A DNA stretch of 64,000 nucleotides from Cupriavidus nantongensis (GTDB lineage: Bacteria; Pseudomonadota; Gammaproteobacteria; Burkholderiales; Burkholderiaceae): positions 806,001 to 870,000 of the forward strand of contig NZ_CP014845.1 of assembly GCF_001598055.1 (NCBI RefSeq). The letters run 5' to 3'. Positions 24,659 through 49,042 of the stretch are shown piece after piece; positions within the stretch are counted from its first letter, which is position 1, and each line of letters opens with the position of its first letter. The notes beneath the pieces are model-generated. The model had not been told where the DNA came from. It did not search any database and saw nothing but the letters and a program-made list of their open reading frames with translations. Both the position numbers and the translations under genes were made by a program.

Positions 24659-24672
24659 TATGTGATATATCA
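24659..24672 (+). promoter_or_regulatory. Oxalate-regulon operator A (before panE-like gene)
   Basis: TATGTGATATATCA contains the palindromic core TGATATATCA (24663-24672), 33 bp before the panE-like start. It follows a possible TATAGT -10 (24654-24659; TTGCCA at 24633, 15 bp spacing), so it would cover the transcription start. One of eight copies in the window. Confidence 0.75.
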
Positions 24673-24705
24673 AAAGATCCAATCGAGCCATCAAGGAGGC
24701 AGCAT

Positions 24706-25683
24706 ATGAAAGTCTGTATCTACGGCGCCGGTGCCATCGGCGGCTATGTCGGGGCGCAGCTGGCGCGCGCGGGGGCCGAGGTCAGCTTCGTCGCGCGCGG
24801 ACCCCATCTCGCGGCGATGCAGGAGCACGGCGTCAAGCTGCTGATCGATGGCGAGGAGCGGGTCGCGCAGGTGCGCTGCACCAGCGATCCGCGTGAACTC
24901 GGGCCGCAGGACTACGTGTTCATCACCCTCAAGGCGCATTCGGTGCCCGGCGTGGTGGACCAGATGCAGCCGCTGCTGGGGCCGGATACCGCGATCGTGA
25001 CCGGCGTCAACGGCATTCCTTACTGGTACTTCTACAAGCACGGCGGCGAGCTGGCCGGCCGCACGCTGGAAAGCGTGGATCCCGGCGGGCGCCAGTGGCA
25101 GCGCCTGGGGCCGGAGCGGGCCATCGGTTGCGTGGTCTATCCGGCCGCCGAAATCATCGCGCCGGGCGTGATCAAGCATGTCTACGGCAAGAAATTCCCG
25201 CTAGGCGAGCCCGACGGCAGCCGCTCCGCGCGCGTGACCCGGCTCAGCGAAATGATGATGGCGGCCGACCTCGACGCCCCGGTGCGCGACAACATCCGCG
25301 ACGAGATCTGGCTCAAGCTGTGGGGCAACCTGTGCTTCAACCCGATCAGCGCGCTGACCCACGCGACGCTCGACGTCATCACCGCCGACCCCGCCACGCG
25401 CGCGCTGTCGCGCCAGATGATGGTGGAGGCGCAGGGCATCGCCGAGCGCTTCGGGGTGAAGTTCCGGGTCGACGTGGAGCGGCGCATCGACGGCGCCGGC
25501 GCCGTCGGCGCGCACAAGACCTCGATGCTGCAGGACCTGGAGGCGGGGCGGGCCATGGAAATCGACCCGCTGCTGACGGTGGTGCAGGAAATGGGGCGGC
25601 TGGTGGGCGCACCGACGCCGATGTGCGACGCGGTGCTGGGCCTGATCAAGCAGCGCGACGCGATGGCGAAGCTGGCCGCCTGA
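24706..25683 (+). CDS. panE2: PanE-family 2-ketoacid reductase; probable oxalyl-CoA reductase
   Basis: A 325-residue ketopantoate reductase-family protein. The NADPH loop is YGAGAIGGYVGAQLARAGAE (residues 5-24); the catalytic-lysine region KLWGNLCFNPISALTH (about 205-220) is typical. An AAGGAGG ribosome site precedes the ATG. It carries an oxalate-regulon operator in front and neighbours gntR, frc and pntAB. In Methylorubrum extorquens a PanE paralogue (PanE2) is the NADPH-linked oxalyl-CoA reductase that turns oxalyl-CoA into glyoxylate. Context makes that role more likely here than pantothenate synthesis. Family is certain; the specific reaction is inference. Confidence 0.8.
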   Translation: MKVCIYGAGAIGGYVGAQLARAGAEVSFVARGPHLAAMQEHGVKLLIDGEERVAQVRCTSDPRELGPQDYVFITLKAHSVPGVVDQMQPLLGPDTAIVTGVNGIPYWYFYKHGGELAGRTLESVDPGGRQWQRLGPERAIGCVVYPAAEIIAPGVIKHVYGKKFPLGEPDGSRSARVTRLSEMMMAADLDAPVRDNIRDEIWLKLWGNLCFNPISALTHATLDVITADPATRALSRQMMVEAQGIAERFGVKFRVDVERRIDGAGAVGAHKTSMLQDLEAGRAMEIDPLLTVVQEMGRLVGAPTPMCDAVLGLIKQRDAMAKLAA

Positions 25684-25726
25684 GGAGCAGAGCAGGGGAC
25701 GCCGACGGGTCAGGCGTCCTCCGCGG

Positions 25727-25765
25727 CGCGAGCCGGCACGCAACGTGACGCTTGCCCGGCTCGCG
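25727..25765 (+). terminator. Hairpins downstream of panE-like gene
   Basis: A 10-bp perfect stem (CGCGAGCCGG at 25727-25736 with CCGGCTCGCG at 25756-25765) follows a smaller one (GGACGCC 25697-25703 with GGCGTCC 25713-25719). There is no T-run, so termination is likely but not of the classic form. Confidence 0.45.
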
Positions 25766-25785
25766 AAGTCGTAAGGCGGGGCGAT

Positions 25786-25800
25786 TGTGATATACCATAT
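25786..25800 (+). promoter_or_regulatory. Oxalate-regulon operator B (before gntR)
   Basis: The core TGATATACCA (25788-25797) differs from the consensus at one base and is followed by TATACGAC. It lies 156 bp before the GntR start, suggesting autoregulation. Confidence 0.6.
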
Positions 25801-25955
25801 ACGACAGGCCGCGCACCGCTTTTGTGCCGATGCATATGGAGCGCGCATCGTTTGATGCGTTTTCATAATGGGTCAGGCGTTTTTGCTAAGCTGTGCAGCA
25901 ATGCGGCGGGCAGCCATTCCGGCGGCCCGGCTGCCGGTCTCACACGAGCACATTC

Positions 25956-26675
25956 ATGTCTGCGCAAAGCCAATCCATCGTCCAGCCCAACGGGCTGTCC
26001 CTGTCGGTACAACCGATCAACGCCGGCGCCAGCCTGCGCGACCAGGCCTACGCCATGCTGCGCCAGGCCATCGCCGACGCCGACATCTACCAGTCGCGCG
26101 ACGAGATCCGGCTGGATGAGCGGGTGCTGAGCGAGGCCATGGGCGTGAGCCGCACGCCGATCCGCGAGGCCATGACGCTGCTGGAGCAGGAAGGCTTCCT
26201 GCGCACCGTGCCGCGGCGCGGCATCTACATCATGCGCAAGACCAAGCGCGAGATCGTCGAGATGATCCAGATGTGGGCCGCGCTCGAAAGCATGGCGGCC
26301 CGGCTGGCCACCGAGAATGCCACCGATGCCGAGATCGCGCAGCTGCGCAGCATGTTCGACAGCTTCCGCGACTCGACGCCAGCCGAGCATATCGAAGAGT
26401 ATTCCGACGCCAATATCGCGTTCCACCAGGCGATCGTGCAACTGTCCAAGTCGCAGATCATCATGGACACGATCCGCAACATCTTTATCCACGTGCGCGC
26501 GATCCGGAAGATGACGATCTCGCAGAGCGACCGCGCGGCAAGGTCGATCGTCGACCATCTGCGCATCATCGAGGCGCTGGAGAGGCGGGACACAGAACTG
26601 GCCGAGCGGCTGGTGCGGCAGCATTCGCTGGACCTCGCCGACTACGTGGAGAAGCACTGCGATTTCCTGGACTGA
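25956..26675 (+). CDS. GntR-family regulator, probable controller of the oxalate regulon
   Basis: A 239-residue FadR-subfamily GntR protein. The winged helix (EIRLDERVLSEAMGVSRTPI, then GFLRTVPRRGIYI) occupies about residues 48-95. The helical FCD ligand domain follows, with NIAFHQAIVQLSKSQI and ARSIVDHLRIIEALERRDTE carrying the usual His/Asp positions. Its own gene is preceded by operator B and followed by operators C and D before frc. No other DNA-binding protein lies inside the 24.6-38 kb block. It is the simplest candidate to bind the eight TGATATATCA sites; ligand probably an oxalate-derived acid or CoA ester (inference). The ATG at 25956 is preferred over upstream in-frame ATG 25893. 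Confidence 0.88.
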   Translation: MSAQSQSIVQPNGLSLSVQPINAGASLRDQAYAMLRQAIADADIYQSRDEIRLDERVLSEAMGVSRTPIREAMTLLEQEGFLRTVPRRGIYIMRKTKREIVEMIQMWAALESMAARLATENATDAEIAQLRSMFDSFRDSTPAEHIEEYSDANIAFHQAIVQLSKSQIIMDTIRNIFIHVRAIRKMTISQSDRAARSIVDHLRIIEALERRDTELAERLVRQHSLDLADYVEKHCDFLD

Positions 26676-26701
26676 AGCAGCCAGGACAAGGTTATGGAAA
26701 G

Positions 26702-26725
26702 CGGCGGACTTCGGTCCGCCGTTTT
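26702..26725 (+). terminator. Rho-independent terminator of gntR
   Basis: CGGCGGAC-TTCG-GTCCGCCG is a perfect 8-bp stem with a UUCG tetraloop, followed by TTTTGCTTTT. It separates gntR from the frc operon. Confidence 0.85.
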
Positions 26726-26772
26726 GCTTTTGGGCTCGTCAGTGCATGCCAACGCCATTTCGCTAAATGGTG

Positions 26773-26784
26773 TGTGATATATCA
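26773..26784 (+). promoter_or_regulatory. Oxalate-regulon operator C (distal, before frc)
   Basis: TGTGATATATCA with perfect core TGATATATCA (26775-26784). It is in the opposite polarity to operator D, whose core centre is 152 bp downstream. Together they form a distal/proximal pair in the 313-bp gntR-frc gap. Confidence 0.7.
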
Positions 26785-26915
26785 ATGTGAAAAGCGATTG
26801 GGCCTTTATGCCACCACAGCGCTGAAAACGGCCGCTCTTATGCCTTCCTTGACTGGATCGCTCGCGCGTGTTGCGTCGCATCGTCGATATTTGCCTCGGA
26901 AGCGCCAAACTCCTC

Positions 26916-26953
26916 TTGCTCTCTTCTGATATATCACATACCGTATGTCATCA
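26916..26953 (+). promoter_or_regulatory. Oxalate-regulon operator D overlapping the frc promoter
   Basis: A 29-bp stretch (26925-26953) is identical to operator F before oxc. It joins palindrome TGATATATCA (26927-26936) to ACATACCGTATGT. A fitting promoter is TTGCTC (26916-26921), 17 bp, TACCGT (26939-26944), so the core lies between -35 and -10. The start codon is 36 bp after the element, with GAGGAGAC as ribosome site. Confidence 0.75.
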
Positions 26954-26988
26954 GAGACTACAAATAGCGGAAGAGGAGACCCTTCGCA

Positions 26989-28221
26989 ATGGAAACCAAA
27001 GCCCTGCAAGGAGTGCGCATCCTGGACATGACCCACGTCCAGGCGGGACCGTCGGCGACGCAGTTGATGGCGTGGCTGGGCGCGGACGTGATCAAGGTGG
27101 AGATGCCGGGGCGCGGCGACATCACGCGCAGCCAGCTGCGCGACGTGCCGAACGCCGACAGCCTGTACTTCACCATGCTCAACTCGAACAAGCGCAGCCT
27201 GACGCTGAACATGAAGACGCCCGAAGGCAAGGCGCTGCTCGAGGACCTGATCCAGCGCAGCGACGTGCTGATCGAGAACTTCGGCCCCGGCGTGCTGGCG
27301 CGCGCAGGCTTCGACTGGGACCACATGCAAGACCTGAACCCGCGCCTGGTCTATGCCTCGATCAAGGGCTTCGGCCCGGGGCCGTACGCGGACTGCAAGG
27401 CTTACGAGAATGTGGCGCAGTGCATGGGCGGCTCGGCTTCGACCACCGGCGAGGCCGACGGCGTGCCCACGGTGACGGGCGCCCAGATCGGCGATTCCGG
27501 CACCGGCGTGCATGCCGTGGTCGGCATCCTTGCCGCGCTGCTGCATCGCGAACACACCGGCCGCGGCCAGCGCGTGGAAGTGGCGATGCAGGACGCGGTG
27601 CTGAACCTGTGCCGGGTCAAGCTGCGCGACCAGCAGCGCCTGGCCAACGGGCCGCTGCGTGAATATCCCAACGAGGAATTCGGCGACCACGTGCCGCGCG
27701 CGGGCAACGCCTCGGGCGGCGGGCAGCCGGGCGCGGCGCTGCGCTGCGCGCCGGGTGGCCCCAACGACTATGTCTACGTCATCATCCAGCCGCAGGGCTG
27801 GGAGCCGCTGATGCGCCTGTGCGGGCGCGAGGACCTGATCACCAACCCGGACTACGCCACGCCCGAAGCGCGCCTCAAGCACCTGGCCGACTGCTTCGCC
27901 GTGATCGAGAAATGGACCCGCGGCATCAGCAAGTTCGAGGTGATGGCGGCGCTGAACGAGGTCGATGTGCCGTGCGGCCCGATCCTGTCGATGAAGGACC
28001 TGATCGAGGACGAGTCGCTGTACCAGCGCGGCTACCTGGTCGAGCTGGAGCATCCGCAGCGCGGCAACTACGTGCAGCTGGGTTGCCCGATCACGCTGTC
28101 GGCCTCGCCGGTGCAGGTGGAACGCTCGCCGCTGCTGGGCGAGCACACCGAGGAGATCCTCGAGTGGCTGGGCCGCACGCCCGCGCAGATCGCCGCGATG
28201 AAGCTGGCCGGCGCGGTATGA
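26989..28221 (+). CDS. frc: Formyl-CoA:oxalate CoA-transferase, copy 1 (family III)
   Basis: A 410-residue class III CoA-transferase that moves CoA from formyl-CoA (or another donor) to oxalate. The catalytic aspartate is Asp169 (QIGDSGTG), exactly the position of the Oxalobacter enzyme. [20 protein letters not shown] and [12 protein letters not shown] are family motifs. The mobile glycine loop reads SGGGQP rather than GGGGQP as in copy 2, which may alter donor preference. First gene of an apparent operon with the FAH gene and pntAB, under operators C and D. Alternative: a donor other than formyl-CoA (acetyl-CoA or succinyl-CoA). Confidence 0.85.
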
Positions 28222-28369: not shown

Positions 28370-29152
28370 GTGCAAACCTGGATTCGTTTTTGCCGCGCCG
28401 ACGGCAGCATCGGCCATGGCCGCATCGATCAGGCTGACCCCAACCGCGTGGTCGAATATGACCGCGACGGCTTCGACAATCCCAGCCCCACCGGCGCCGT
28501 GCATGACCGCGCCGCGCTGACCGTGGTGGCGCCGTGCGCGCCGGGCAAGGTGGTGGCGCTGTGGAACAACTTCCACGCGCTCGCGCGCAAGCTGGAGAAG
28601 CCGGTGCCGACGCACCCGTTGTTCCTGATCAAGCCGGCGACCTCGCTGGCCGGTCCCAACGACGCCGTGCAGCGCCCCAAGAGCTACGACGGCAAGATCG
28701 TCTACGAGGGCGAGCTGGGCATCGTCATCGGCAAGAAGGCGCGCAACGTGACGGTGGCGGAGGCCGGCGCCCATATCTTCGGCTACACCATCGTCAACGA
28801 CGTGACCGCGGCCGAGCTGATCACGGCCGATCCCAATTTCCCGCAATGGACCCGCGCCAAGGGCTTCGACACCTTCGGCTGCATCGGCCCGGCCATCGTC
28901 ACCGGCTTCCCCTGGAAGAGCGCCAGCGTGGTCACGCGGCTGGATGGGGTGGAGCGGCAGAACTACCCGCTGTCCGACATGATCTTCTCGCCCGAGGAGC
29001 AGGTCAGCCGGATCTCGCAGGACCTGACGCTGATGCCGGGCGACGTGATTGCCGTGGGCACCTCGCTGGGCGTGGGTTCGATGAAGGACGGCGCCGTGGT
29101 CGAGGTGTCGATCGCCGGCATCGGCTCGCTGGTCAACCACGTGCGCGGCTGA
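28370..29152 (+). CDS. Fumarylacetoacetate hydrolase (FAH)-family protein
   Basis: A 260-residue FAH-fold protein. The metal-binding residues lie in [16 protein letters not shown] (the E.E pattern near residues 113-118) and [10 protein letters not shown]. The domain ends in the usual [15 protein letters not shown]. It begins with GTG at 28370 behind an AAGGAG site; a nearby ATG (28365) is out of frame. It lies between frc and pntA in the oxalate operon. Members cleave or tautomerise 2-oxo acids (for example oxaloacetate decarboxylase/tautomerase). Its role in oxalate metabolism is not established, and removing an off-pathway oxo acid is one possibility. Confidence 0.75.
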
Positions 29153-29189
29153 GCCGGCGCCAGATCCCTTTCCTGAAACGGTGAATGCC

Positions 29190-30749
29190 ATGCCAATGAC
29201 GATCGGTGTGCCGCGCGAGGTCCATCCGGGCGAGCGGCGCGTTGCCGCGACCCCGGACTCGGTCAAAGAACTGCTCAAGCTCGGCTATCAGGTAGTGGTG
29301 GAGACCGGTGCCGGGCTGGAAGCGTCGTTCTCGGACGACGACTACCGCGCCGCGGGCGCGGCCATTGTCGATGCGGCCAGCCTGTGGGCCTCGGTCGACG
29401 TGGTGGTCAAGGTGCGCCCGCCGCAGGTCCATCCCAGCCTGGGGGTGGAAGAGGCGGCGCTGCTGAAGAAGCATGCCACGCTCATCGGCTTTGTCTGGCC
29501 GGCACAGCAGATGCCGATGCTCGAGCGCCTGGCGCAGCGCGGTGCCACGGTGCTGGCGATGGACTGCGTGCCCCGCATCTCGCGCGCGCAGAAGCTGGAT
29601 GCGCTCAGCTCGATGGCGAACATGGCCGGCTACCGCGCGGTGATCGAAGCCGCGCATGCCTTCGGCCGGCCCTTCGCCGGGCAGATCACCGCCGCGGGCA
29701 AGATCCCGCCGGCGCGCGTGCTGGTGATCGGCGCAGGCGTGGCGGGGCTGGCGGCGATCGGCGCGGCGCGCAGCCTGGGCGCGGTGGTGCGCGCCTTCGA
29801 CACGCGGCCGGTGGTGCGCCAGCAGATCGAAAGCCTGGGCGCGGAATTCCTCACCGTCGAGATCGAAGAGGACGGCAGCGGCAGCGGCGGCTACGCCAGG
29901 GAGATGAGCCCGGCCTTTATCGAAGCGGAGATGCGGCTCTTTGCCGAGCAGGCGCGCGAGGTCGACATCATCATCACCACCGCGCTGATTCCCGGCAAGC
30001 CGGCGCCCAGGCTGCTGGAGGCCGGGACCGTCGCGCTGATGCGCGCCGGCAGCGTGGTGGTCGACCTGGCCGCCGAGCAGGGCGGCAACTGCGTGCTGAC
30101 CGTGCCGGGCGAAAGCGTGCGCCGCGACGGCGTCACCATCATCGGCTATACCGACCTGCCCAGCCGCATGGCGGCGCAGGCGAGCCAGCTCTATGCCACC
30201 AATATCCGCCACCTGCTGAGCGAGCTGACGCCGGGCAAGGACGGCCAGCTGGTGGTGGACATGGACGACGAGATGATCCGCGGCGCGACGGTGCTGCACC
30301 AGGGCGCGGTGACCTGGCCGCCACCGCCGCTGACGGTGGCGGTGCCGCAGCAGCAGGCGCCGGCGGAGGTGCCGGTGCCGGCCGAAGCCGCGCCGCCGCG
30401 CAGCCGCACCGGCACCATGCTGATTGCCCTGGCACTGGCGGCCGCTGCGCTGCTGGGACTGGGGGCGGTCGCGCCACCTGCCTTCATGGCGCATTTCACG
30501 GTGTTCGTGCTGGCGATCTTCGTCGGCTACCAGGTGGTGTGGAACGTCACCGCGGCGCTGCACACGCCGCTGATGAGCGTGACCAACGCCATCAGCGGGA
30601 TCATCGTGGTGGGGGCGCTGGTGCAGCTGGGCAAGCCGTCGCTGCTGACGGCGGTGATCGCGGGCTGCGCGGTGCTGGTGGCCACCATCAATATCGCCGG
30701 GGGCTTCCTGGTGACGCAGCGCATGCTGAAGATGTTCCAGCGCGACTAA
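29190..30749 (+). CDS. pntA: Proton-translocating NAD(P) transhydrogenase alpha subunit
   Basis: A 519-residue subunit joining the NAD-binding domain I ([20 protein letters not shown] at the start; [17 protein letters not shown] near residue 175) with a C-terminal block of four membrane helices (from [14 protein letters not shown] to MLKMFQRD). Some bacteria split this protein into PntAA and PntAB; here it is fused, as in E. coli. With PntB it uses the proton gradient to reduce NADP with NADH. In this operon it would supply NADPH for oxalyl-CoA reduction (inference). Start ambiguous: GTG 29181, ATG 29190 and ATG 29196 are in frame. Confidence 0.9.
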
Positions 30750-30765
30750 GGCCAGGGAGAGAACC

Positions 30766-32163
30766 ATGCCATCCGGAATCAGCAATATCGCTTACCTCGC
30801 CGCCAGCGCGCTGTTTATCCTCAGCTTGAGCGGACTAAGCCATCCCGCCACCGCGCGGCGCGGCAACCTGCTCGGCATCGCCGGCATGGTGATCGCGGTC
30901 ATGACCACGGTGCTGGCGGGCAGTCCCGACGGCATCGCCATCATCATCGTGGCGATGGTGGTGGGGGGCATTGCCGGCGCCATGCTGGCCAGGCGCGTCG
31001 AGATGACGCAGATGCCGCAGCTGGTGGCGGTGCTGCACAGCTTCGTCGGCCTGGCCGCGGTGCTGGTCGGCTATGCCAACTACCTGGAGCCGACCACGCT
31101 CGGCGGCGTCGAGAAGGCGATCCATGAGGTCGAGACCTACCTCGGCATCCTGATCGGCGCGGTCACCTTCACCGGCTCGATCATCGCCTTCCTCAAGCTG
31201 CAAGGGACCATGGGCGGCAAGCCGATGCTGCTGCCGGGGCGCCACGTGCTCAACGCCGGCGCGCTGCTGGTGTGCGTGTGGCTGGGCTATGCCTTCCTGG
31301 CCGCGCCGAATCCGCAGCAGGGGCTGGTGCCGCTGGCGGCGATGACGGTGATCGCGCTGCTGGTCGGCGCGCACCTGGTGCTGGCCATCGGCGGTGCCGA
31401 TATGCCGGTGGTGGTATCGATGCTGAACAGCTACTCCGGCTGGGCGGCGGCGGCAACCGGCTTCATGCTGGGCAACGACCTGCTGATCATCACCGGCGCG
31501 CTGGTGGGGTCGAGCGGCGCCATCCTCAGCTACATCATGTGCAAGGCGATGAACCGCAAGTTCCTGGCGGTGATCCTGGGAGGCTTCGGCGCGGTGCAGG
31601 CGCAGGGCGCGGCGACCGAGCAGGGCGAGGTGCTGCCGGTGTCGAGCGAGGAAGTCAGCAGCCTGCTGAAGGACGCCAACGAGGTCATCATCGTGCCGGG
31701 CTACGGCATGGCGGTGGCGCAGGCGCAGGGCACTATCAGCGAGATCGCTCGGCGCCTGCGGGCGCAGGGCGTCAACGTGCGCTTCGGCATCCACCCGGTG
31801 GCCGGCCGCCTGCCCGGGCATATGAACGTGCTGCTGGCCGAGGCGCGGGTGCCGTACGACATCGTGCTGGAAATGGAAGAGATCAACGACGACTTCGAGA
31901 AGGCCGACGTGGTGCTGGTGGTCGGCGCCAACGACATCGTCAACCCGGGGGCGCTGGAGGACCCCGCCAGCCCGATTGCCGGCATGCCGGTGCTGGAGGT
32001 GTGGAAGGCCAAGACCGTGGTGGTGTCCAAGCGCAGCATGGCGGCGGGCTACGCAGGCGTCGACAACCCGCTGTTCTACAAGGACAACACGCGCATGTGG
32101 TTTGGCGATGCCAAGGGCAGCGTCGATGCGCTGCTGCGGCAGTTGGAGGAGGCGCCGGCCTGA
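30766..32163 (+). CDS. pntB: NAD(P) transhydrogenase beta subunit
   Basis: A 465-residue subunit. About nine membrane helices come first ([20 protein letters not shown]; conserved His in [20 protein letters not shown]). The NADP-binding domain III follows, with [15 protein letters not shown] near 304-318, [14 protein letters not shown] and [11 protein letters not shown]. It lies 16 bp after pntA and is the last gene of the frc-FAH-pntAB operon, completing the NADPH-forming transhydrogenase. Confidence 0.93.
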
Positions 32164-32193
32164 TCGCCTGTCGAGGCGCGGTATCGATTCATG

Positions 32194-32483: not shown

Positions 32484-33830
32484 ATGGCGCAATGGGAAGC
32501 ATCGGCCCCCGCCGGTCGCGATGATGTGAACGGGCGCGGGCTGCAGAACCGCTGGATGCAACTGGCAATCGGCGTAGTGTGCATGGGGCTGGTGGCGAAT
32601 CTGCAGTACGGCTGGACCCTTTTCGTGTCCCCGATGGACGCCAGGCATCACTGGGGCGCGTCCGCGATCCAGGTGGCATTTTCTATCTTCATCGTCACCG
32701 AGACCTGGCTGGTGCCGCTGGAAGGCTGGCTGGTCGACAAGTTCGGTCCGCGCCCGGTAGTGGCCGGCGGGGCGATCTGCGCCGGACTGGCATGGGTGAT
32801 GAACGCGTATGCGACCACGCTGCCGGAGCTGTATGTGGCCGCGGTGATCGCCGGTATCGGCGCCGGCGGCGTCTATGGAACCTGCGTCGGCAACGCGCTG
32901 AAGTGGTTCCCGGACAAGCGCGGCCTGGCCGCCGGCCTGACCGCGGCGGGTTTCGGCGCGGGCGCGGCCATCACCGTGATTCCGATCGCCAACATGATCC
33001 AGAGCGCGGGCTATGAGAAGGCCTTCCTGTTCTTCGGCATCCTGCAAGGGGTGAGCATCTTCGTGCTGGCGCTGCTGCTGGTGAAGCCCAGGCCGCCCAA
33101 GGGGGCGGTGGCGGCCAAGGCGGTGCTGACCAACCCGGTCGAGTACACGCCGGGGCAGATGGTGAAGACGCCGGTGTTCTGGCTGATCTATGCCAGCTTT
33201 GTCGCGGTGGCGGCGGGCGGCATCATGGCGACGGCGCAACTGGGGCCGATCGCCAAGGACTACGGCTTTGCGTCGATGCCGGTGACGCTGCTGGGGCTGA
33301 CCTTGCCGCTGCTGACGATGACGCTGTCGATCGACAACCTGTGCAATGGCTTCACGCGCCCGCTGTGCGGCTTCCTGTCGGACCGGTTCGGTCGCGAGAA
33401 CACGATGTTCGTGATCTTCATCGGCGAGGGGCTGGCGCTGCTGGGGCTGATGCAGCTGGGGCACAACCCGTACTGGTTCATGTTCTTCGCGGCGCTGACC
33501 TTCCTGTTCTGGGGCGAGATCTTCTCGATCTTCCCGGCGCTGTGCGCGGATACCTTCGGCAGCAAGTTCGCGGCGGCGAACGCGGGCACGCTGTACACCG
33601 CCAAGGGGACTGCGGCGATGCTGGTGCCGCTGGCCTCGGTCCTGTCCGCACGCGGGGGCTGGGAAGCGGTATTCACCGTGGCAGCGGTGGTGACGATCGC
33701 CGCGGGGCTGTCGGCGAAACTGGTGCTGGCACCCATGCGCAAGAGGTTCATCACCGGCCACCCGGCATCGGCGCTGCCAGTGCCCGACAGCGGCCTGGTG
33801 GCGAACCCATCGGCCAGCCGCGTTGAATAG
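32484..33830 (+). CDS. oxlT: Oxalate:formate antiporter, copy 1 (OFA family, MFS)
   Basis: A 448-residue major-facilitator protein with 12 predicted helices. The OFA-family features are NLQYGWTLFVSPMDARH in TM1, VYGTCVGNALKWFP in TM4-5 and LYTAKGTAAMLVPLASVL in TM11. The lysine of the last matches OxlT Lys355, which binds the substrate dicarboxylate. It should bring in oxalate in exchange for formate. It is monocistronic, between the pntB hairpin and two hairpins at 33845-33898. It has the LysR-like element upstream rather than a TGATATATCA operator, unlike copy 2. A hairpin (TGTGCCC/GGGCACA, 32439-32455) lies in its leader. Confidence 0.9.
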   Translation: MAQWEASAPAGRDDVNGRGLQNRWMQLAIGVVCMGLVANLQYGWTLFVSPMDARHHWGASAIQVAFSIFIVTETWLVPLEGWLVDKFGPRPVVAGGAICAGLAWVMNAYATTLPELYVAAVIAGIGAGGVYGTCVGNALKWFPDKRGLAAGLTAAGFGAGAAITVIPIANMIQSAGYEKAFLFFGILQGVSIFVLALLLVKPRPPKGAVAAKAVLTNPVEYTPGQMVKTPVFWLIYASFVAVAAGGIMATAQLGPIAKDYGFASMPVTLLGLTLPLLTMTLSIDNLCNGFTRPLCGFLSDRFGRENTMFVIFIGEGLALLGLMQLGHNPYWFMFFAALTFLFWGEIFSIFPALCADTFGSKFAAANAGTLYTAKGTAAMLVPLASVLSARGGWEAVFTVAAVVTIAAGLSAKLVLAPMRKRFITGHPASALPVPDSGLVANPSASRVE

Positions 33831-33898: not shown

Positions 33899-33985
33899 CC
33901 TCACAGCCGGCTAACGCGGCACACGGGGACGTTATGACAGGCTCGGCAGGGGCAGCCCGATGTATCTTCGTCTCCAGAAACGTTG

Positions 33986-33999
33986 TATGTGATATATCT
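33986..33999 (+). promoter_or_regulatory. Oxalate-regulon operator E (distal, before oxc)
   Basis: TATGTGATATATCT with core TGATATATCT (33990-33999, one change). It has opposite polarity to operator F, whose core centre is 185 bp downstream, repeating the arrangement of C and D. Confidence 0.7.
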
Positions 34000-34163: not shown

Positions 34164-34201
34164 TTGCCGTTCTCTGATATATCACATACCGTATGTCATC
34201 A
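34164..34201 (+). promoter_or_regulatory. Oxalate-regulon operator F overlapping the oxc promoter
   Basis: The 29 bp at 34173-34201 are identical to those before frc (26925-26953). TTGCCG (34164-34169), 17 bp, TACCGT (34187-34192) is a possible promoter with the core TGATATATCA (34175-34184) between the two hexamers. It lies in the 553-bp gap before oxc, which also holds operator E and the short ORF at 34286. Confidence 0.78.
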
Positions 34202-34285: not shown

Positions 34286-34336
34286 ATGTCGGAAGTCGTA
34301 GCGAAGCGGGCCCAGAGCACTCCCGCGGCAGCCTGA
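34286..34336 (+). CDS. Possible 16-residue leader peptide before oxc
   Basis: MSEVVAKRAQSTPAAA is encoded from an ATG placed 5 bp after a strong AAAAGGAGAC ribosome site, stops at 34334-34336, and is 47 bp before the oxc start. Position (between promoter and oxc) and ribosome site support translation, but coding evidence is thin at this length. It could be a regulatory leader or the remnant of an older oxc start (oxc itself begins MAEVGNEL). Confidence 0.4.
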   Translation: MSEVVAKRAQSTPAAA

Positions 34337-34383: not shown

Positions 34384-36123
34384 ATGGCAGAAGTCGGAAA
34401 CGAGCTGCAGCGTCACGCCGCGCAAGAACATCAGGCACAAACCGATGGTTTTCATCTGGTCATCGACGCGCTGAAGCTGAACGGCATCGAAAACATCTAC
34501 GGCCTGCCCGGCATTCCGGTCACCGATCTGGCCCGTCTGGCGCAGGCCAACGGCATGCGCGTCATCAGCTTCCGCCATGAGCAGAACGCCGGCAACGCCG
34601 CGGCGATTGCGGGCTTCCTGACGCAGAAGCCGGGCGTCTGCCTGACCGTCTCCGCGCCGGGTTTCCTGAACGGGCTGACGGCGCTGGCGCATGCCACCAC
34701 CAACTGCTTCCCGATGATCCTGATCAGCGGCTCGAGCGAGCGCGAGATCGTTGACCTGCAGCAGGGTGACTACGAAGAGATGGACCAGCTCGCCATCGCG
34801 CGTCCGCACGCCAAGGCTGCGTTCCGCGTGCTGCATGCCGAAGACATCGGCGTCGGCGTCGCGCGTGCCATCCGCGCCGCGGTGTCGGGCCGCCCGGGCG
34901 GCGTGTACCTGGACCTGCCGGCCAAGCTGCTGGGCCAGTCGCTGGAAGCCGAGAAGGGCAAGCAGTCGCTGATCAAGGTAGTGGACCCGGCGCCGCGCCA
35001 GCTGCCCGCACCGGATTCGGTCGACCGCGCCGTCGCGCTGCTGAAGACCGCCAAGCGTCCGCTGATCCTGATCGGCAAGGGCGCCGCGTATGCACGCGCC
35101 GAGGCGGACCTGCGCAAGCTGGTCGAGAAGACCGGCATCCCGTACCTGCCGATGTCGATGGCCAAGGGCCTGCTGCCCGATACGCATCCGCAATCGGCCT
35201 CGGCCGCGCGCTCCTATGTGCTGGCGGAGGCCGACGTGGTGCTGCTGGTCGGCGCCCGCCTGAACTGGCTGCTGTCGCACGGCAAGGGCAAGACCTGGGG
35301 CAAGCCCAAGCAATTCATCCAGGTCGACATCGCGCCGACCGAGATGGACAGCAACGTTGCCATCGCCGCGCCGGTGGTCGGCGACATCGGCTCGTGCGTC
35401 ACGGCGCTGCTCGACAAGATCGGCAATGACTTCGCCCGGCCGGGCGCCGACTGGCTGAACGCGGTGGCCGACCGCCGCGACACCAACCTCGCCAAGATGG
35501 CCGAAACCCTGGCCAGGGCCAAAGATGCCGCGCCGATGAACTTCCACGGCGCGCTGGCCGTGCTCAAGGACGTGGTCAAGGCCAACCCGGGCATCTCGTT
35601 CGTCAACGAAGGCGCCAACACGCTGGACTATGCCCGTGCCGTGATCGACATGTACGAGCCGCGCAAGCGCCTGGACGTGGGCACCTGGGGCGTGATGGGC
35701 GTGGGCATGGGCTACGCGGTGGCCGCGGCGGTCGAGACCGGCAAGCCGGTGCTGGCGCTGTGCGGCGACAGCGCCTTCGGTTTCTCGGGCATGGAAGTCG
35801 AGACCATCTGCCGCTACAACCTGCCGGTCTGCATCGTCATCTTCAACAACAACGGCGTCTACAAGGGCATCGACAAGAACCCCACCGGCGGCACTGATCC
35901 GGCGGTCACGACCTTCGTCCCGGGTGCGCGCTACGACAAGATGATGGAAGCGTTCGGCGGTGTCGGCGCCAATGTCACCACGCCGGCAGAACTCGAGGCC
36001 GCGGTCAACGAAGCGCTGCGCTCGGGCAGGCCGACGCTGGTCAACGCCGTCATCGATCCGGCGGCCGGCACCGAAAGCGGCCGCCTGACCAACCTCAATC
36101 CGCAAAGCTCGGCCAAGAAGTAA
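34384..36123 (+). CDS. oxc: Oxalyl-CoA decarboxylase (thiamine diphosphate)
   Basis: A 579-residue ThDP enzyme that splits oxalyl-CoA into formyl-CoA and CO2. The activating glutamate is Glu66 in [32 protein letters not shown] is the family-specific N-terminal region. The ThDP/Mg motif runs from [20 protein letters not shown] to the NNN that follows (residues about 460-492). Length matches the Oxalobacter enzyme (about 568). First gene of the oxc-frc pair, under operators E and F. Formyl-CoA produced here feeds back to Frc, so the pair forms a catalytic cycle releasing formate. Confidence 0.95.
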
Positions 36124-36163: not shown

Positions 36164-37414
36164 GTGAACCTCCCACTCAACGGCATCAAGATCATCGACT
36201 TCACGCACGTCCAGGCGGGTCCCGCCTGCACCCAACTGCTGGCATGGTTCGGCGCCGACGTGATCAAGGTCGAGCGCCCGGGTTCCGGCGACGTGACGCG
36301 GACCCAGCTGCGCGACATCCCGGATGTCGACGCGCTGTACTTCACCATGCTCAACAGCAACAAGCGTTCGCTGACGCTGGACACGAAGAAGCCGGAAGGC
36401 AAGAAGATCCTGGAGCAGCTGATCCGCGAGTCGGACGTGCTGGTCGAGAACTTCGGCCCGGGCGCGCTGGACCGCATGGGCTTCTCGTGGGAGCGCATCA
36501 ACGAGCTCAACCCGAAGATGATCGTGGCTTCGGTCAAGGGCTTCAGCGACGGCCACCACTATGAAGACCTGAAGGTCTACGAGAACGTGGCGCAGTGCGC
36601 CGGCGGCGCGGCCTCGACCACCGGCTTCTGGGACGGCCCGCCCACGGTTTCCGCTGCGGCGCTGGGCGATTCCAACACCGGCATGCACCTGGCGATCGGC
36701 ATCCTGACCGCGCTGATTGGCCGCGACAAGACCGGCAAGGGCCAGAAGGTGGCGGTGTCGATGCAGGATGCGGTGCTGAACCTGTGCCGCGTCAAGCTGC
36801 GCGACCAGCAGCGCCTGGACCGCCTGGGCTACCTGGAAGAGTATCCGCAGTACCCGCACGGCACCTTCAGCGACGTGGTGCCGCGTGGCGGCAACGCGGG
36901 CGGCGGCGGCCAGCCGGGCTGGGTGCTGAAGTGCAAGGGCTGGGAGACCGATCCCAACGCCTATATCTACTTCACCATCCAGGGCCATGCCTGGGAGCCG
37001 ATCTGCAAGGCGCTGGGCAAGCCGGAATGGATCGACGACCCCAACTACGCCACCGCCAAGGCGCGCCAGCCGCATATCTTCGATATCTTCAACACCATCG
37101 AGGAATGGCTGGCCGACAAGACCAAGTACGAGGCGGTCGACATCCTGCGCAAGTTCGACATCCCGTGCTCGCCGGTGCTGTCGATGAAGGAAATCGCCAA
37201 CGATCCGTCGCTGCGTGCCAGCGGCAGCATCACCGAGGTGCCGCACAAGGAGCGCGGCAGCTACCTGACGGTGGGCAGCCCGATCAAGTTCTCCGACCTG
37301 AAGCCGGAGATCACGGGTTCGCCGCTGCTGGGCGAGCATAGCGAAGAGGTGCTGGCCGGCCTGGGCTACGGTGCCGAAGACATCAAGCGCCTGCGCGAGT
37401 CCCAGGTGATCTGA
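36164..37414 (+). CDS. frc: Formyl-CoA:oxalate CoA-transferase, copy 2
   Basis: A 416-residue class III CoA-transferase, 40 bp after oxc. It starts with GTG (36164) behind AGGAGA. Catalytic Asp169 is present (ALGDSNTG), as is the full glycine loop GGGGQPG, as in the characterised Oxalobacter Frc (428 residues). [20 protein letters not shown] is family-typical. It exchanges CoA between formyl-CoA and oxalate and works directly with Oxc. It is the better match to canonical Frc of the two copies. A strong terminator follows. Confidence 0.93.
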
Positions 37415-42002: not shown

Positions 42003-42057
42003 GGCGGACGCAGTGCGGACGCAGGGCGCCCCTAGCGTTCCGCACCCGCCGCGCATG

Positions 42058-45531: not shown

Positions 45532-45538
45532 ACAAAAA

Positions 45539-45569
45539 ACGGCGAGGCCGCTGTCGCGCGCCTCGCCGT
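45539..45569. terminator. Bidirectional terminator between convergent genes
   Basis: ACGGCGAGGC (45539-45548) and GCCTCGCCGT (45560-45569) form a perfect 10-bp stem. On the minus strand it is followed by GTTTTTTGTT, so it is a strong terminator for the 45586-45891 gene and a hairpin for the plus-strand operon. Confidence 0.85.
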
Positions 45570-45585
45570 GAACCGATCGGGCCGC

Positions 45586-45891: not shown

Positions 45892-45995
45892 GCTGGTCTC
45901 CTCGGGTGCGCGCTGGCAGTTGGGTTGAGACAAGCATAGGGAGGGCGAACGATTTACGATAATTAAACTTTCATAGGAAAACCATAAGTCATTAT

Positions 45996-46937
45996 TTATG
46001 CATCGTGCCGAACCAGGCCGGTGACCCCGGTGATGGTCTGGATCAGGTCCGCGCCTTCTTCCATCAGAAACTGCTTGAACGCCAGCGCCACCGGCGGCAG
46101 CCGCTTGTTCTTGCGGTGCACCACGTACCAGTTGAGCATCACCGGGAAGCCTTCGATATCGAGCACGGCGAGCTTGCCGGCCTGCAGCTCCAGGCCCACG
46201 GTATGCGCCGACAGGAAGGCAAGGCCCATGTTGGCGATCACCGCCTGCTTGATGGTTTCGGTGCTCTTGATCTCCATGGCGATGCGCAGGTTCGACAGCC
46301 GGCCGGCAAAGCCCTCCTGCATCGAGTTCCAGGTGTCCGAGCCTTTCTCGCGCGAGACAAAGGCCTCGTCGGCGAGTTCGGCCAGCGGGATATTGCGCTT
46401 GCCCACCAGCGGATGGCTGGGCGCGGCGACGATCACGTAAGGGTGGGGGGCGAAGGCCTCGTTGATGGTGTCCATACCTTCGGGCGGGCGCACCATTACC
46501 GCGAGGTCGGTCAGGTTGCCGGCCAGCTGGTGCAGCAGTTCCTCGCGGTTGTGCACGGCCAGGTTCAGCGTCACGCCCTCGTGGCGGTCCATGAATTCCG
46601 CCAGCAGCCGCGGAAAGAAATAATCGCCGGCGCTGATCACCGCGACATTGAGGCGGCCGCCGGAGATGCCCTTGAGCTGCGACATGGCGTCTTCGGCCTC
46701 GCGGAACTGCTGGATGATGCTGCGGCTGTAATGCAGCATTTCATGGCCCGCCGGCGTCAGGTAGATCTTCTTGCCGAGCTGCTCGAACAGCGGCAGCCCG
46801 ACGTGGTGCTCGAGTTGCCGCACCTGGGTCGATACCGCGGGCTGGGTCAGGTGCAGTTCCTCGGCGGCGCGAGAAAAGCTCATATGGCGGGCAACGGTCT
46901 CGAAGACCTTCAGCTGCCGCAGCGTGGCGTTCTTCAT
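45996..46937 (-). CDS. CbbR-like LysR-family regulator
   Basis: A 313-residue LysR protein. The HTH region LRQLKVFETVARHMSFSRAA followed by EELHLTQPAVSTQVRQLEHH (residues 6-45) and the effector domain (LMVRPPEG-like AVMVRPPEGMDT; IKQAVIANMGLAFLSAHTVG) match the CbbR subgroup. That subgroup regulates CO2 fixation and some formate/oxalate genes in autotrophs. No cbb genes are in the window. It is divergently placed from the 53-bp element at 46970, a copy of which precedes the first oxalate antiporter, so that antiporter is a candidate target. Subfamily from memory of CbbR sequence; target inferred. Confidence 0.85.
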   Translation of the reverse strand: MKNATLRQLKVFETVARHMSFSRAAEELHLTQPAVSTQVRQLEHHVGLPLFEQLGKKIYLTPAGHEMLHYSRSIIQQFREAEDAMSQLKGISGGRLNVAVISAGDYFFPRLLAEFMDRHEGVTLNLAVHNREELLHQLAGNLTDLAVMVRPPEGMDTINEAFAPHPYVIVAAPSHPLVGKRNIPLAELADEAFVSREKGSDTWNSMQEGFAGRLSNLRIAMEIKSTETIKQAVIANMGLAFLSAHTVGLELQAGKLAVLDIEGFPVMLNWYVVHRKNKRLPPVALAFKQFLMEEGADLIQTITGVTGLVRHDA

Positions 46938-46969
46938 CCTGCTCCCGTCCTATAAACGATCGGCTATAT

Positions 46970-47022
46970 AAACGATAAAAAACTTTATGCAGTGCTGATC
47001 TTAGATTCAAGTAGCATCAATC
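46970..47022 (+). promoter_or_regulatory. 53-bp element shared with the antiporter leader, copy 2
   Basis: AAACGATAAAAAACTTTA (46970-46987) and TTCAAGTAGCATCAATC (47006-47022) repeat the blocks at 32317 and 32353 with the same 18-bp spacing. Here TATAAACGAT also occurs twice (46951-46960 and 46967-46976). The element starts 32 bp before the CbbR-like gene's start on the other strand, a typical place for LysR autoregulation, and reads toward the second LysR gene. It lies in the 306-bp inter-LysR gap. Confidence 0.7.
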
Positions 47023-47142
47023 GTCCGTTCAACATTTCCCCCGAGAATCCGGCACTCCGGCAGCGCAGGAGCCAGCCGCCGGCCATCATCATGGCCGACA
47101 ACAACGATGGCTGCCCACAGCCACGCAAACCAGGAGACAACC

Positions 47143-47247
47143 GTGACCGGATTGAACGCAACCGTGCGTGCACCACGGCGCCATGCCGTGCCTGAAGACA
47201 GGCTTCGCCTAGGCCATGCCGGCGCGGGGCAGGGGGGCAGGCCATGA
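47143..47247 (+). CDS. Possible 34-residue ORF coupled to the second LysR gene
   Basis: GTG at 47143 lies 5 bp after an AGGAGA site (47132-47137) and opens a 34-codon frame (MTGLNATVRAPRRHAVPEDR first). Its TGA (47245-47247) overlaps the ATG of the LysR gene (47244), the ATGA arrangement of translational coupling. The composition is basic and low in hydrophobics and no family is recognised. It may be a leader peptide or chance. Confidence 0.33.
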   Translation: MTGLNATVRAPRRHAVPEDRLRLGHAGAGQGGRP

Positions 47248-48167
47248 ATATCTCGCTCCCGCAACTGAAGGCCTTTGCCGCGGTGGCCCGGCACAAGAGC
47301 TTTACCCGCGCCGCGGTGGAACTGGGCCTGACGCAATCCGCGGTCAGCCGCAGCGTGCGCGAGCTGGAAGAAGAGATCGACCAGCGCCTGTTCGACCGCA
47401 CCACGCGCCAGGTGGAGCTGACCGACGCCGGCCAGCACCTGTCGCAGCGCATCTGCCACCTGATCGAGGAAGTGGAGCAGACCCTGCGCGACAGCCAGAG
47501 CGCCAGCCGCCCCTGCCAGGGCCTGGTGCAGATCGCGTCGGACCCGGTGCTGAGTTCGATGTCGCTGCCGACCTGGCTGGCCGGTTGCAGGCAGGCGTGG
47601 CCGGCGATCGCCATCCACCTGAAGGACCGCTCGCAGGAATCGGTGCTGCAGAGCGTGCGCAGCGGCGAGGTCGACTTCGGCATCGCCACCGATCCGCGTG
47701 CCGGCGACGACCTGTATTGCGAGCCCTTGTGCGTCGACCCGTATCACGCCGTGCTGCCCGCCAAGCACCCGCTGGCCCAGCACGACACCGTAGGGTGGGA
47801 CGACCTGTGCGATGCCAGCGTGCTGACGCTGGACCAGCAATGCGGCGTGCAGCCCGTGGTGGAAAAGGCGCTCAGCAGCTATCACGTGCGCGCCGGCTCG
47901 CTGCAGTTGCTGGGCCATTTCGCCGCGGTGTTCGGCATGGTGGCGCTGGGGCTGGGCATCGGCGTGGTGCCTTCGCGGGCCCAGGCCGGCGGCATGCATC
48001 CCGCCGCCGTGATGCGGCCGCTGCGGCCACAGGTGACATCGACGGTGATGCTGGTGCGGCGCAAGAGCCGGTCGCTCAAGCCCAACGCTGCGGCGATCTG
48101 GGACGCGTTGCGCGGCCAGGAGTACCAGGAGCCTCCGGTCCGCAAGCGCGAACCGACGACGGTCTGA
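47244..48167 (+). CDS. LysR-family transcriptional regulator
   Basis: A 307-residue LysR protein. The HTH is LPQLKAFAAVARHKSFTRAA followed by VELGLTQSAVSRSVRELEEE (residues 5-45). The effector domain contains EVDFGIATDPRAG and FGMVALGLGIGVVPSRAQ. It lies between the CbbR-like regulator and the second oxalate block, reading toward the small membrane-protein gene and antiporter 2. It may regulate those genes along with the GntR protein. The start overlaps the stop of the 34-codon ORF. Confidence 0.87.
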   Translation: MNISLPQLKAFAAVARHKSFTRAAVELGLTQSAVSRSVRELEEEIDQRLFDRTTRQVELTDAGQHLSQRICHLIEEVEQTLRDSQSASRPCQGLVQIASDPVLSSMSLPTWLAGCRQAWPAIAIHLKDRSQESVLQSVRSGEVDFGIATDPRAGDDLYCEPLCVDPYHAVLPAKHPLAQHDTVGWDDLCDASVLTLDQQCGVQPVVEKALSSYHVRAGSLQLLGHFAAVFGMVALGLGIGVVPSRAQAGGMHPAAVMRPLRPQVTSTVMLVRRKSRSLKPNAAAIWDALRGQEYQEPPVRKREPTTV

Positions 48168-48206
48168 CAGGGCGTGGGCGTGTGTTGGATTAGTGCATCA
48201 CCTCTA

Positions 48207-48224
48207 TTGATATATTACATACAG
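48207..48224 (+). promoter_or_regulatory. Oxalate-regulon operator G (before a small membrane-protein gene)
   Basis: TTGATATATTACATACAG with core TGATATATTA (48208-48217, one change from consensus) and the following CATAC shared with operators D, F and H. It ends 5 bp before the -35 of a strong promoter, so binding here would sit upstream of RNA polymerase, unlike sites D and F. Confidence 0.65.
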
Positions 48225-48228
48225 GATA

Positions 48229-48290
48229 TTTACACATAGTGCGGCGCAGCATATAATGAAAACTCCTGATCACAACGCTACTGGAGTTTT
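48229..48290 (+). promoter_or_regulatory. Strong promoter and inverted repeat before the small membrane-protein gene
   Basis: TTTACA (48229-48234), exactly 17 bp, TATAAT (48252-48257) is a near-consensus sigma-70 promoter. AAAACTCC (48259-48266) and GGAGTTTT (48283-48290) form a perfect 8-bp inverted repeat around the expected transcription start. The right arm contains the GGAG ribosome site of the gene at 48294. It could be an operator, or, if transcription starts at its left arm, a hairpin hiding the ribosome site. Confidence 0.65.
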
Positions 48291-48293
48291 CAA

Positions 48294-48512
48294 ATGGAAG
48301 TCGCTCTTCTCGTCGCCCTTGGCCTGGCCCTGATTGCTGTCGGTGTGGGCGTGACCACGCTGCTGGCCACGCGCCTGCCCATGGATGTGCTGGTCACCGC
48401 GCAGGACCACGGCCGCTTCGCTGGCCTGGGCTCGGACCAGCACAGCGACGGCGTGGGCCGCGCCAGCGCGTCGCGCATCGTGCCTGCGGCTGGCGAACTC
48501 GCCTATGCCTGA
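48294..48512 (+). CDS. Small single-pass membrane protein in the oxalate regulon
   Basis: A 72-residue protein. MEVALLVALGLALIAVGVGV forms one N-terminal membrane helix, and a short polar tail of about 45 residues contains QDHGRFAGLGSDQHSDGVGR with two His and three Asp. It has a near-consensus promoter, a GGAG site 7 bp before ATG and a regulon operator upstream, so it is convincingly a gene expressed with oxalate functions. No family recognised. Possible roles are a small partner of the antiporter or of another membrane complex. Confidence 0.65.
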   Translation: MEVALLVALGLALIAVGVGVTTLLATRLPMDVLVTAQDHGRFAGLGSDQHSDGVGRASASRIVPAAGELAYA

Positions 48513-49011
48513 AGCCGCCAGGCGCGCGGCGCGTTCGCGCTGAAGCGCTGAAGGCAAGGGCTGTAGCGGCCGGCATCCCTTGCGACCATCACGGCGAGCA
48601 CGGCCGCCCATTCCCTCTTCACAGCCTCCTCTTTCTCCCTGTTCGCAATAGCGAACGCCTTGGCGCCTCCTTGCGCGCTGTCCACCATCGGCACCGAGCG
48701 TGCCAGGCCCCGCGTGGATTCCCCGACATTCCATATCGATACGGACACGGCCGGACATCCATGTCTGCATCTAGGGACTTTCCCCAACCGATCGTTTTCC
48801 CGGTTTTTCGATGGCGCGATCCCCGGCATGCTTGCGGATGCCGTGCGCTGGCCGATTTATCACCAACCGCAAGGCAACTGCTTGATTTTCAAGGACTCTT
48901 GATGCTGCCGGAACAGCCATTGATGCAGCTTGCGCACCAGTCGCAGGCGCTCCGTGGCGGCTACGGCACCAGGTAACGCGGCTGCATGCTGCACAGCCGC
49001 GACGAATACGC
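48513..49011. other. Intergenic stretch with no convincing gene
   Basis: About 500 bp between the small membrane-protein gene and operator H. It has a perfect short inverted repeat, GTTCGC-AATA-GCGAAC (48641-48656). Open frames of 80-101 codons (48660-48902, 48671-48976) lack ribosome sites and domain features. The part from about 48700 to 48910 is visibly less GC-rich than neighbouring genes and may be a decayed remnant. Confidence 0.5.
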
Positions 49012-49042
49012 TTGACTTACCTGATATATCACATACCGTATA
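49012..49042 (+). promoter_or_regulatory. Oxalate-regulon operator H overlapping the antiporter 2 promoter
   Basis: CTGATATATCACATACCGTA (49021-49040) repeats the core and second palindrome of D and F. TTGACT (49012-49017), 16 bp, TACCGT (49034-49039) is the matching promoter, with the core TGATATATCA (49022-49031) between the hexamers. It lies 101 bp before the antiporter start. Confidence 0.78.

Follow-up and report, generated by a model that had tools for sequence, protein, structure and literature searches.

How are genes for oxalate and formate metabolism kept in step when they lie in separate groups along a chromosome? The question is raised by a stretch of 64,000 nucleotides from Cupriavidus nantongensis (contig NZ_CP014845.1, positions 806,001 to 870,000; hereafter the window, with positions counted from its first letter). 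A preliminary description, made from the letters of the window, proposed that eight intergenic copies of a palindromic core, TGATATATCA, define a split oxalate/formate regulon under one dimeric regulator, most likely the GntR protein encoded at 25956-26675. We find that the core is the symmetric part of a longer, asymmetric element, TGATATATCACATAC. The sites are probably the operators of this GntR/FCD protein, which would act as an autoregulated repressor released by oxalate or a coenzyme A (CoA) derivative. The inference that GntR controls all sites is supported, in that presence of GntR predicts presence of sites, but the number of sites is nine, not eight.

Nine copies of one element

The eight cores claimed for the window, at 24663, 25788, 26775, 26927, 33990, 34175, 48208 and 49022, are each present with zero or one mismatch, and the 64 kb contain no further TGATATATCA at up to one mismatch, as had been stated. 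In 100 dinucleotide shuffles the mean count at up to one change was 0.15 and the largest 2. All eight sites (A to H, in order) lie outside mapped genes, as claimed, though 87.5% of the stretch is coding. The core itself is real but only part of the element: when the sites are aligned in a common orientation, five more bases, CATAC, are common to them beyond the 10-mer, and on this longer element sites A, C and E run in one direction and the other five (B, D, F, G and H) in the opposite one.

Across the whole 7.14-Mb genome, TGATATATCACATAC occurs at up to two mismatches in nine places, namely the eight of the window plus, at a distance of 190 kb from it, one perfect copy (G000:C2:1060774-1060788). 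The set of eight was therefore right as far as it went, but incomplete. The ninth site lies approximately 190-220 bp before a third oxalate/formate antiporter gene, oxlT3 (TIGR04259, 577.8 bits); since the pattern had been chosen without knowledge of this gene, the site constitutes independent confirmation. The genome-wide scan revealed no excess of unrelated sites: eight of the nine are at gntR or at oxalate/formate genes, and site G is at a small membrane-protein gene with no assigned role. With three mismatches allowed, the same genome yields 13 further matches; three of these are B, F and H read on the other strand, and the reversed pattern reaches three, so that the practical limit is two mismatches.

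Site A (24658..24672, minus strand) is a perfect TGATATATCACATAC before a panE-like gene (24706..25683, plus; NF005089, 543.7 bits), and by eye follows a promoter-like pair, TTGCCA-17-TAGTAT. Site B (25788..25802, plus) has two mismatches; its variant, TGATATACCATATAC, recurs among the genus matches listed, and its location before gntR (25956..26675, plus) presumably reflects autoregulation. Site C (26770..26784, minus; TGATATATCACACAC, one mismatch) is the reversed upstream partner of the perfect site D (26927..26941, plus), which precedes the formyl-CoA transferase gene frc1 (26989..28221, plus; TIGR03253, 636.6 bits) and lies between TTGCTC (26916-26921) and TACCGT (26939-26944). Likewise, site E (33985..33999, minus; AGATATATCACATAC, one mismatch) is the reversed upstream partner of the perfect site F (34175..34189, plus), between TTGCCG (34164-34169) and TACCGT (34187-34192), before the oxalyl-CoA decarboxylase gene oxc (34384..36123, plus; TIGR03254, 1041.9 bits) and a second formyl-CoA transferase gene, frc2 (36164..37414, plus; TIGR03253, 736 bits). 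The 29 bp said to be identical before frc and oxc are indeed the same around D and F (TCTGATATATCACATACCGTATGTCATCA). Site G (48208..48222, plus; TGATATATTACATAC, one mismatch) is directly upstream of a promoter-like TTTACA-17-TATAAT (48229-48257) and precedes the gene for a small hydrophobic protein of 72 amino acids (48294..48512, plus; no Pfam match). The perfect site H (49022..49036, plus), preceded by TTGACT (49012-49017) with a 16-nt gap to TACCGT, stands before the antiporter gene oxlT2 (49143..50462, plus; TIGR04259, 632 bits) and the formate dehydrogenase beta and alpha genes, called fdwBA in the preliminary description (50657..55214, plus; NuoF-like, 362.8 bits; TIGR01591, 757.5 bits). 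A second palindrome, reported to adjoin the core at D, F and H, is perfect at D and F; at H it has two mismatches, and it is also found at G with three. No Rfam family matches the window at the gathering score.

Sites and regulator across the genus and the family

Is the element conserved in relatives that carry the same genes? Within the genus and beyond, it is. Our genus set comprised 60 genomes, the window's own and 59 relatives; all listed sites were mapped in 17 of these, the main locus only in G035, G046 and G058, single sites were inspected in G003, G006 and G016, and the remainder were counted only. At least one site match is present in 59 of the 60. The GntR protein is found in 56, at 85-100% identity, and these carry 2-12 matches each (504 in total), while the four genomes without it have 1, 1, 1 and 0; the reversed pattern gives 21 matches over all 60 genomes.

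In the 17 mapped genomes, 134 of 146 matches have the start of one of the set's genes at a distance of up to about 500 bp: panE, frc1 and oxc have 17 each, gntR 16, oxlT2 15, the small membrane-protein gene 13, oxlT3 and a succinyl-CoA-ligase-like gene 12 each, a thiamine diphosphate (ThDP) enzyme 6, and fdwB, hdac and an abhydrolase gene 3 each. The succinyl-CoA-ligase-like, hdac and abhydrolase genes, with 18 matches between them, have no evident link to oxalate. Placement is regular, with an oppositely oriented site 39-91 bp before panE in 17 of 17 genomes and a distance of 78-80 bp between site and small membrane-protein gene in 13. Among the 12 leftover matches, those in G009, G011 and G012 (0-1 mismatch) are just past a LysR2-like gene, which is the usual small membrane-protein place, and that in G008 (one mismatch) is on a small contig; the remaining eight, with two mismatches each, look like chance.

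Canonical oxc is present in 41 of the 60 genomes at E<=1e-200 (40 above the family cut-off), and 15 genomes without a canonical oxc match still carry GntR and 2-9 site matches. Eleven of the 15 were read (one of the other four is 54% complete): ten have, in the place of oxc, a ThDP enzyme 25-28% identical to Oxc, and G046 has oxc in two adjacent pieces.

For the family we considered 398 genomes, of which 197 have the GntR gene and 166 a site at up to one mismatch. Among the 339 outside the genus, 106 have both, 8 only GntR, 5 only the site and 220 neither (Fisher p 4e-71), given a GntR cut-off of E<=1e-110 that was chosen after the list was seen and that counts 28 genomes of one genus (E ~1e-102 to 1e-105) as GntR-negative. 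With those 28 counted as positive the table becomes 106/36/5/192, with totals of 142 GntR-bearing and 111 site-bearing genomes. For two of the 28, the surroundings of gntR were read, and the sites there have drifted; a third stretch (L276) ends at a contig end. In a genus with GntR at 69-71% identity, two loci with matching oxalate genes (oxlT2-oxc-frc-pas-frc-fah together with panE-gntR) contain drifted sites such as AGATATACCACATAC and TGATATACGATATAC. The eight GntR-only genomes all belong to one genus, and the three that were searched at two mismatches all have matches. One of the five site-only genomes, G265, was examined; here panE and the site are on a 5.3-kb contig, and gntR may be missing from the assembly. 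In genus g20 sites are present in 53 of 53 GntR-positive genomes and in none of six GntR-negative ones.

Nine remote sites in other genera were read. Seven (L173, L174, L175, L176, L181, L183 and L186) precede orthologs of oxlT2, and in six of these the TTGACTTAC lead-in of site H recurs; another (L179) is near formate-dehydrogenase-like genes and the last (L184) is near none of the query genes. The L179 site (L179:3740, genome G127) has the variant TGATATATCACGTAC, and the genes downstream of it share 38% identity with fdwB and fdwA; this variant recurs in G104 and G265.

A second sample consisted of 80 named loci fetched with the GntR protein, the best 80 of 195. They are mostly from Cupriavidus and Paraburkholderia, with a few records from Ralstonia, Burkholderia, Pandoraea, Candidimonas, Paralcaligenes and Thiomonas, and derive largely from the same species as the other genomes used, so the two samples are not independent. 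These best 80 loci contain 312 site matches in 1.56 Mb against 0 for the reversed pattern, with at least one match in 78 of the 80. When 10-mers were counted de novo in the 450 bp upstream of gntR at 44 non-Cupriavidus loci, TGATATATCA was found in 21 of 44, compared to 3 counts in up to 440 random pieces (drawn with a process-dependent seed), and a promoter-like stretch, GCATATGATTGAGT, outranked it with up to 33 of 44. This result is supportive of TGATATATCA as an operator but does not decide the matter.

The proposed operator and the GntR protein

The consensus of 182 non-redundant sites is TGATATA(T/C)CACATACn(A/G)TATnT. It contains two overlapping dyads, TGATATATCA and ACATACnGTATGT, with centres separated by 10.5 bp, close to one turn of the helix; the second dyad is weak in its right half. 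Conservation is largely limited to the element, a few adjacent bases and the -35 position. That the general operator might be one 20-bp palindrome, GTATGTGATATATCACATAC, was rejected, as its left arm is not conserved over all sites; both-strand matches to a palindrome of this type number 29, in 27 of 80 loci. TTG is exactly at -11 in 43 of 85 non-redundant forward sites, where other offsets from -28 to -5 reach at most 7, and reversed sites have it at -11 in 8 of 101 and at -10 in 9. The resulting layout is a -35 box, a 17-base gap and a -10-like box, TAC(C/T)GT, inside the element; the gap is 17 bases at D and F and 16 at H and, by eye, at the ninth site. That the site fills the gap between the -35 and -10-like boxes before frc and oxc points to repression.

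The paired sites have a direction as well. The cores of C and D are 152 bp apart and those of E and F 185 bp, and among adjacent pairs 30-350 bp apart we counted 53 in '-+' orientation, 11 in '--', and none in '++' or '+-'. The idea of looping via phased spacing was discarded, as 32 distinct core-centre spacings (110-272 bp) have no common helical phase. Looping at frc1 and oxc is no more than possible.

What can be said of the protein itself? P0001 (239 amino acids) has the domains PF00392 (46.5 bits, cut-off 27) and PF07729 (95.2 bits, cut-off 24.3), which place it in the FCD subfamily of the GntR superfamily. Its structure model (mean predicted local distance difference test score, pLDDT, 82.0; residues 1-21 below 50) shows six helices following the winged helix (H97-121 to H213-234), and six effector-domain helices we take to denote the VanR group. 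The modelled protein has no extra effector-domain helix and would belong to that group, which is reported to lack the extra helix of the FadR group (PMC7797058; here and below, published work is cited from the accessible part of each paper). Asn153, His157, His201 and His223 occur without exception in 33 of 33 aligned sequences, at the positions that in Atu1419 hold the zinc ligands Asn137, His141, His192 and His214, suggesting a metal-binding FCD regulator of the type with Asn/Asp and three His. The recognition helix, GVSRTPxREAMTLLE, is identical in the nine orthologs compared.

By sequence and fold the protein matches PmiR and Atu1419. Atu1419 from Agrobacterium fabrum is a tetrameric repressor that binds 10-bp palindromes overlapping the -10 box or between -35 and -10; it has two sites 190 bp apart, and DNA looping has been seen (PMC7797058). 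It resembles the window's GntR in being an FCD-GntR protein of the VanR group with an aligned Asn-His3 metal site (PDB 6z74, 6za0, 6za3, 6za7 and 6zab), but differs in its palindrome (ATGTATACAT rather than TGATATATCA), ligand and pathway, at 22-24% identity; for GntR, a tetramer and looping are putative. Since our sites resemble those of Atu1419 in their 10-bp core, their position inside the promoter and a second copy at 152 or 185 bp, repression with release is the best reading. PmiR from Pseudomonas aeruginosa (PDB 7xp0, 7xp1) is the best solved match by profile and by Foldseek E-value, at 28% identity, though the GntR model gives a higher TM-score with E. coli McbR (4p9f). PmiR is a different protein with another role, and BioR, a member of the FadR subfamily, controls genes other than the oxalate set. 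Like the present core, the BioR site, TTATMKATAA, is an AT-rich palindrome of 10 bp that departs from the common GntR box, but its sequence is different (PMC4494728). For the proposed function a parallel exists in GlcR from Paracoccus denitrificans, a GntR-family repressor of C2-acid oxidation genes that is released by its substrate (PMC11323563), although its target is glycolate oxidase and glycolate releases it.

In the accessible parts of the open-access literature we recognised no regulator or operator of frc, oxc or oxlT, a scope that excludes subscription papers and RegPrecise. The available text of a C. oxalaticus genome note describes a putative oxalotrophy operon and does not contain the word regulator (PMC9476978), and a survey of GntR motifs does not mention Cupriavidus, Ralstonia or Burkholderia in its accessible main text, the RegPrecise data behind the survey being outside our scope (PMC4494728). 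Judged from sequence, a new regulon of a known regulator type, with an operator outside the usual GntR box, is well supported.

How would such a regulon work? Without substrate, GntR, probably as a metal-bearing VanR-group oligomer, would occupy the frc, oxc and oxlT promoters in the gap between -35 and -10 and there exclude RNA polymerase; at frc1 and oxc it may bind the reversed partner site, 152 or 185 bp further upstream, as well, possibly with a DNA loop. The effector, either oxalate itself or oxalyl-CoA or formyl-CoA, would bind in the FCD pocket, probably on the metal at the four conserved residues, and release of GntR would turn on exchange, CoA transfer and decarboxylation together with glyoxylate formation by reduction and with formate oxidation, while the variant site at gntR would keep the level of the regulator in step. 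The simple dimer proposed at the outset is thereby amended to repression, possibly by a tetramer. A more specific version, a family-wide switch in which a VanR-type tetramer reads the two-dyad operator in the promoter, bridges to the reversed site and senses oxalate chelated on the metal, is rather doubtful. Were it true, species that have this regulon but no canonical Oxc would point to an unrecognised ThDP enzyme that cleaves oxalyl-CoA.

Competing explanations and the extent of the proposed regulon

Several observations weigh against GntR as repressor of the whole set. Judging from the reversed pattern in the genus, approximately 0.35 chance matches per genome are expected at two mismatches, and loci L231 and L244 lack sites at up to two mismatches although they carry the GntR gene. 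Sites G and B are upstream of presumed -35 boxes or unplaced, and activation is possible there. The pair spacings, without helical phase over 110-272 bp, lend no support to looping, and in 10 of 17 mapped genomes a divergent gene can explain the reversed site. The common operator box of the FadR subfamily is the palindrome TKGT/ACMA (PMC4494728), which the site consensus does not fit. Expression data are mixed. In sugarcane-associated Burkholderia Q208 one oxalate cluster is strongly upregulated, with almost no reads for its oxlT (PMC5116747), a pattern that is hard to reconcile simply. In Paraburkholderia phymatum nodules oxc and frc are expressed equally in wild type and nifA mutant, and oxalate is higher in the nifA-mutant nodules (PMC8305402); unchanged oxc and frc despite higher oxalate does not fit simply. 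On the other hand, Burkholderia terrae BS001 facing a fungus upregulates early genes of two oxalate clusters, each with an antiporter gene and frc (PMC5209427), and joint upregulation of two separate clusters fits co-control.

Could a LysR-type regulator bind the sites instead and activate the genes with an oxalate-derived co-inducer? The window encodes two, LysR1 (45996..46937, minus), with no site in its upstream stretch within the window, and LysR2 (47244..48167, plus), with site G just downstream. In a chosen set of 60 genomes (match defined as E<=1e-80), LysR1 is present in 21 of the 22 that bear GntR at E<=1e-110, one copy having an internal stop, and in 8 of the 38 others, so co-occurrence hardly separates LysR1 from GntR, a further point against our reading. 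LysR2 is weakened as a candidate by matches in only 4 of the 60, a count that understates it, given that LysR2-like genes of 41-62% identity are present in several mapped loci; these LysR2-like proteins are, however, far more diverged than the sites. LysR activators usually bind upstream of promoters, unlike at the present sites, which lie inside them. In four genomes LysR1 is 74-76% identical and sites at one mismatch are absent, but GntR has diverged there too, hence they do not discriminate. One Cupriavidus genome, G058, carries GntR and two perfect sites and has no LysR1 or LysR2 match at E<=1e-80, with 38 of 155 and 38 of 157 first-look candidates scored. Taken together, the site that gntR has upstream in 16 of 17 mapped genomes, genome G058 and the lack of window sites before either LysR gene favour the assignment to GntR, and we regard control by a LysR protein as quite unlikely.

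GntR might also bind as proposed but activate, or do both, repressing from sites in promoters and activating from those just upstream of -35 (G, perhaps gntR). The element at site G does end directly before TTTACA-17-TATAAT, and E. coli GlcC, a regulator of the FadR subfamily, activates the glc genes (PMC11323563). Yet by eye the second dyad reaches the -35 box at G, and the fixed-spacing overlap of the -35/-10 gap in 43 of 85 non-redundant forward sites is the position of a repressor; we consider activation, alone or beside repression, unlikely. More open is whether the reversed sites C and E are looping partners at all, rather than leftovers of, or operators for, a divergent gene. Ten of the 17 mapped genomes have a site of the same orientation at a divergent succinyl-CoA-ligase-like gene, 13-46 bp inside its alignment-estimated start, and the reversed sites lack both helical phasing and the TTG at -11. 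Against this, in the window and in G002, G010, G014, G015, G018 and G019 the stretches read contain no divergent gene and the reversed sites are kept, with cores 110-191 bp (frc1) and 184-186 bp (oxc) apart, and the pair orientations are 53 '-+' and 11 '--', with no '++' or '+-'. We consider a divergent-gene origin a real possibility, somewhat short of an even call. That the element is a chance or structural motif without a regulator might be supposed from its AT-rich, palindromic core, but shuffles and reversed-pattern controls are near zero and refute this reading, and conservation among non-redundant sites is largely confined to the element, a few neighbouring bases and the -35 position; it is improbable to the point of being negligible.

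Which functions would GntR repression then bring together? Between frc1 and oxc the window also encodes a fah-like protein and the NAD(P) transhydrogenase PntA and PntB (28370..32163, plus), followed by the oxalate/formate antiporter gene oxlT1 (32484..33830, plus; TIGR04259, 657.6 bits). The panE-like gene may be the same as that for C. necator ApbA2. Encoded near frc-oxc, ApbA2 appears to be a CoA-acylating glyoxylate dehydrogenase, acting in oxalyl-CoA reduction (PMC7486775). The gene set thus spans oxalate/formate exchange, CoA transfer, decarboxylation, oxalyl-CoA reduction, transhydrogenase and formate dehydrogenase. Between site F and oxc (34286-34336) we also noted a 16-codon reading frame, MSEVVAKRAQSTPAAA, after a ribosome-binding-like AAAGGAGA, possibly a leader peptide.

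Other genes have sites in relatives. In genomes with GntR and sites but without canonical Oxc, the ThDP enzyme with 25-28% identity to Oxc lies behind a site and next to frc (L090:11173-12927; L093, L095, L102, L108, L112, L116, L125, L141 and L137/L275; also L177, L178 and L187). Its best NCBIfam matches, PRK05858 and 2-hydroxyacyl-CoA lyase, are below cut-off; from its place in the locus it possibly replaces Oxc. Two oxc genes appear incomplete, one in G049, where the match covers profile positions 2-382 of 554, and the one in two adjacent pieces in G046 (L142). At L090 a succinyl-CoA-ligase-like gene (9406-10734) diverges from the ThDP enzyme at the site and an ADP-forming CoA-ligase-like gene (14311-16440) is downstream of frc; both are candidate CoA-activating enzymes of the regulon. 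Elements of the form TGATATATTACATAY or TTGTATATTACATAC precede hdac, a histone-deacetylase-family gene (L086, L106, L130), and an abhydrolase gene with an AAA ATPase gene (L084, L121, L124, L314). For hdac the element is within two mismatches in 5 of 8 close orthologs; for the abhydrolase this holds for 5 of 12, a set that includes the window's genome, the other 7 having 3-4. The four genus genomes free of GntR lack both orthologs and are hence uninformative on the regulator; these promoters are perhaps targets of GntR or of a related regulator.

Oxalate use is common in soil bacteria associated with plants and fungi, and the literature searched showed enzymes, mutants and transcripts. A named gene, nine exact sites and sites across the family make the control of oxalate use directly testable. 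The arrangement also provides a candidate oxalate-responsive promoter-operator for sensors, and the operator may be used as a tag for further genes of the pathway, such as a substitute for Oxc.

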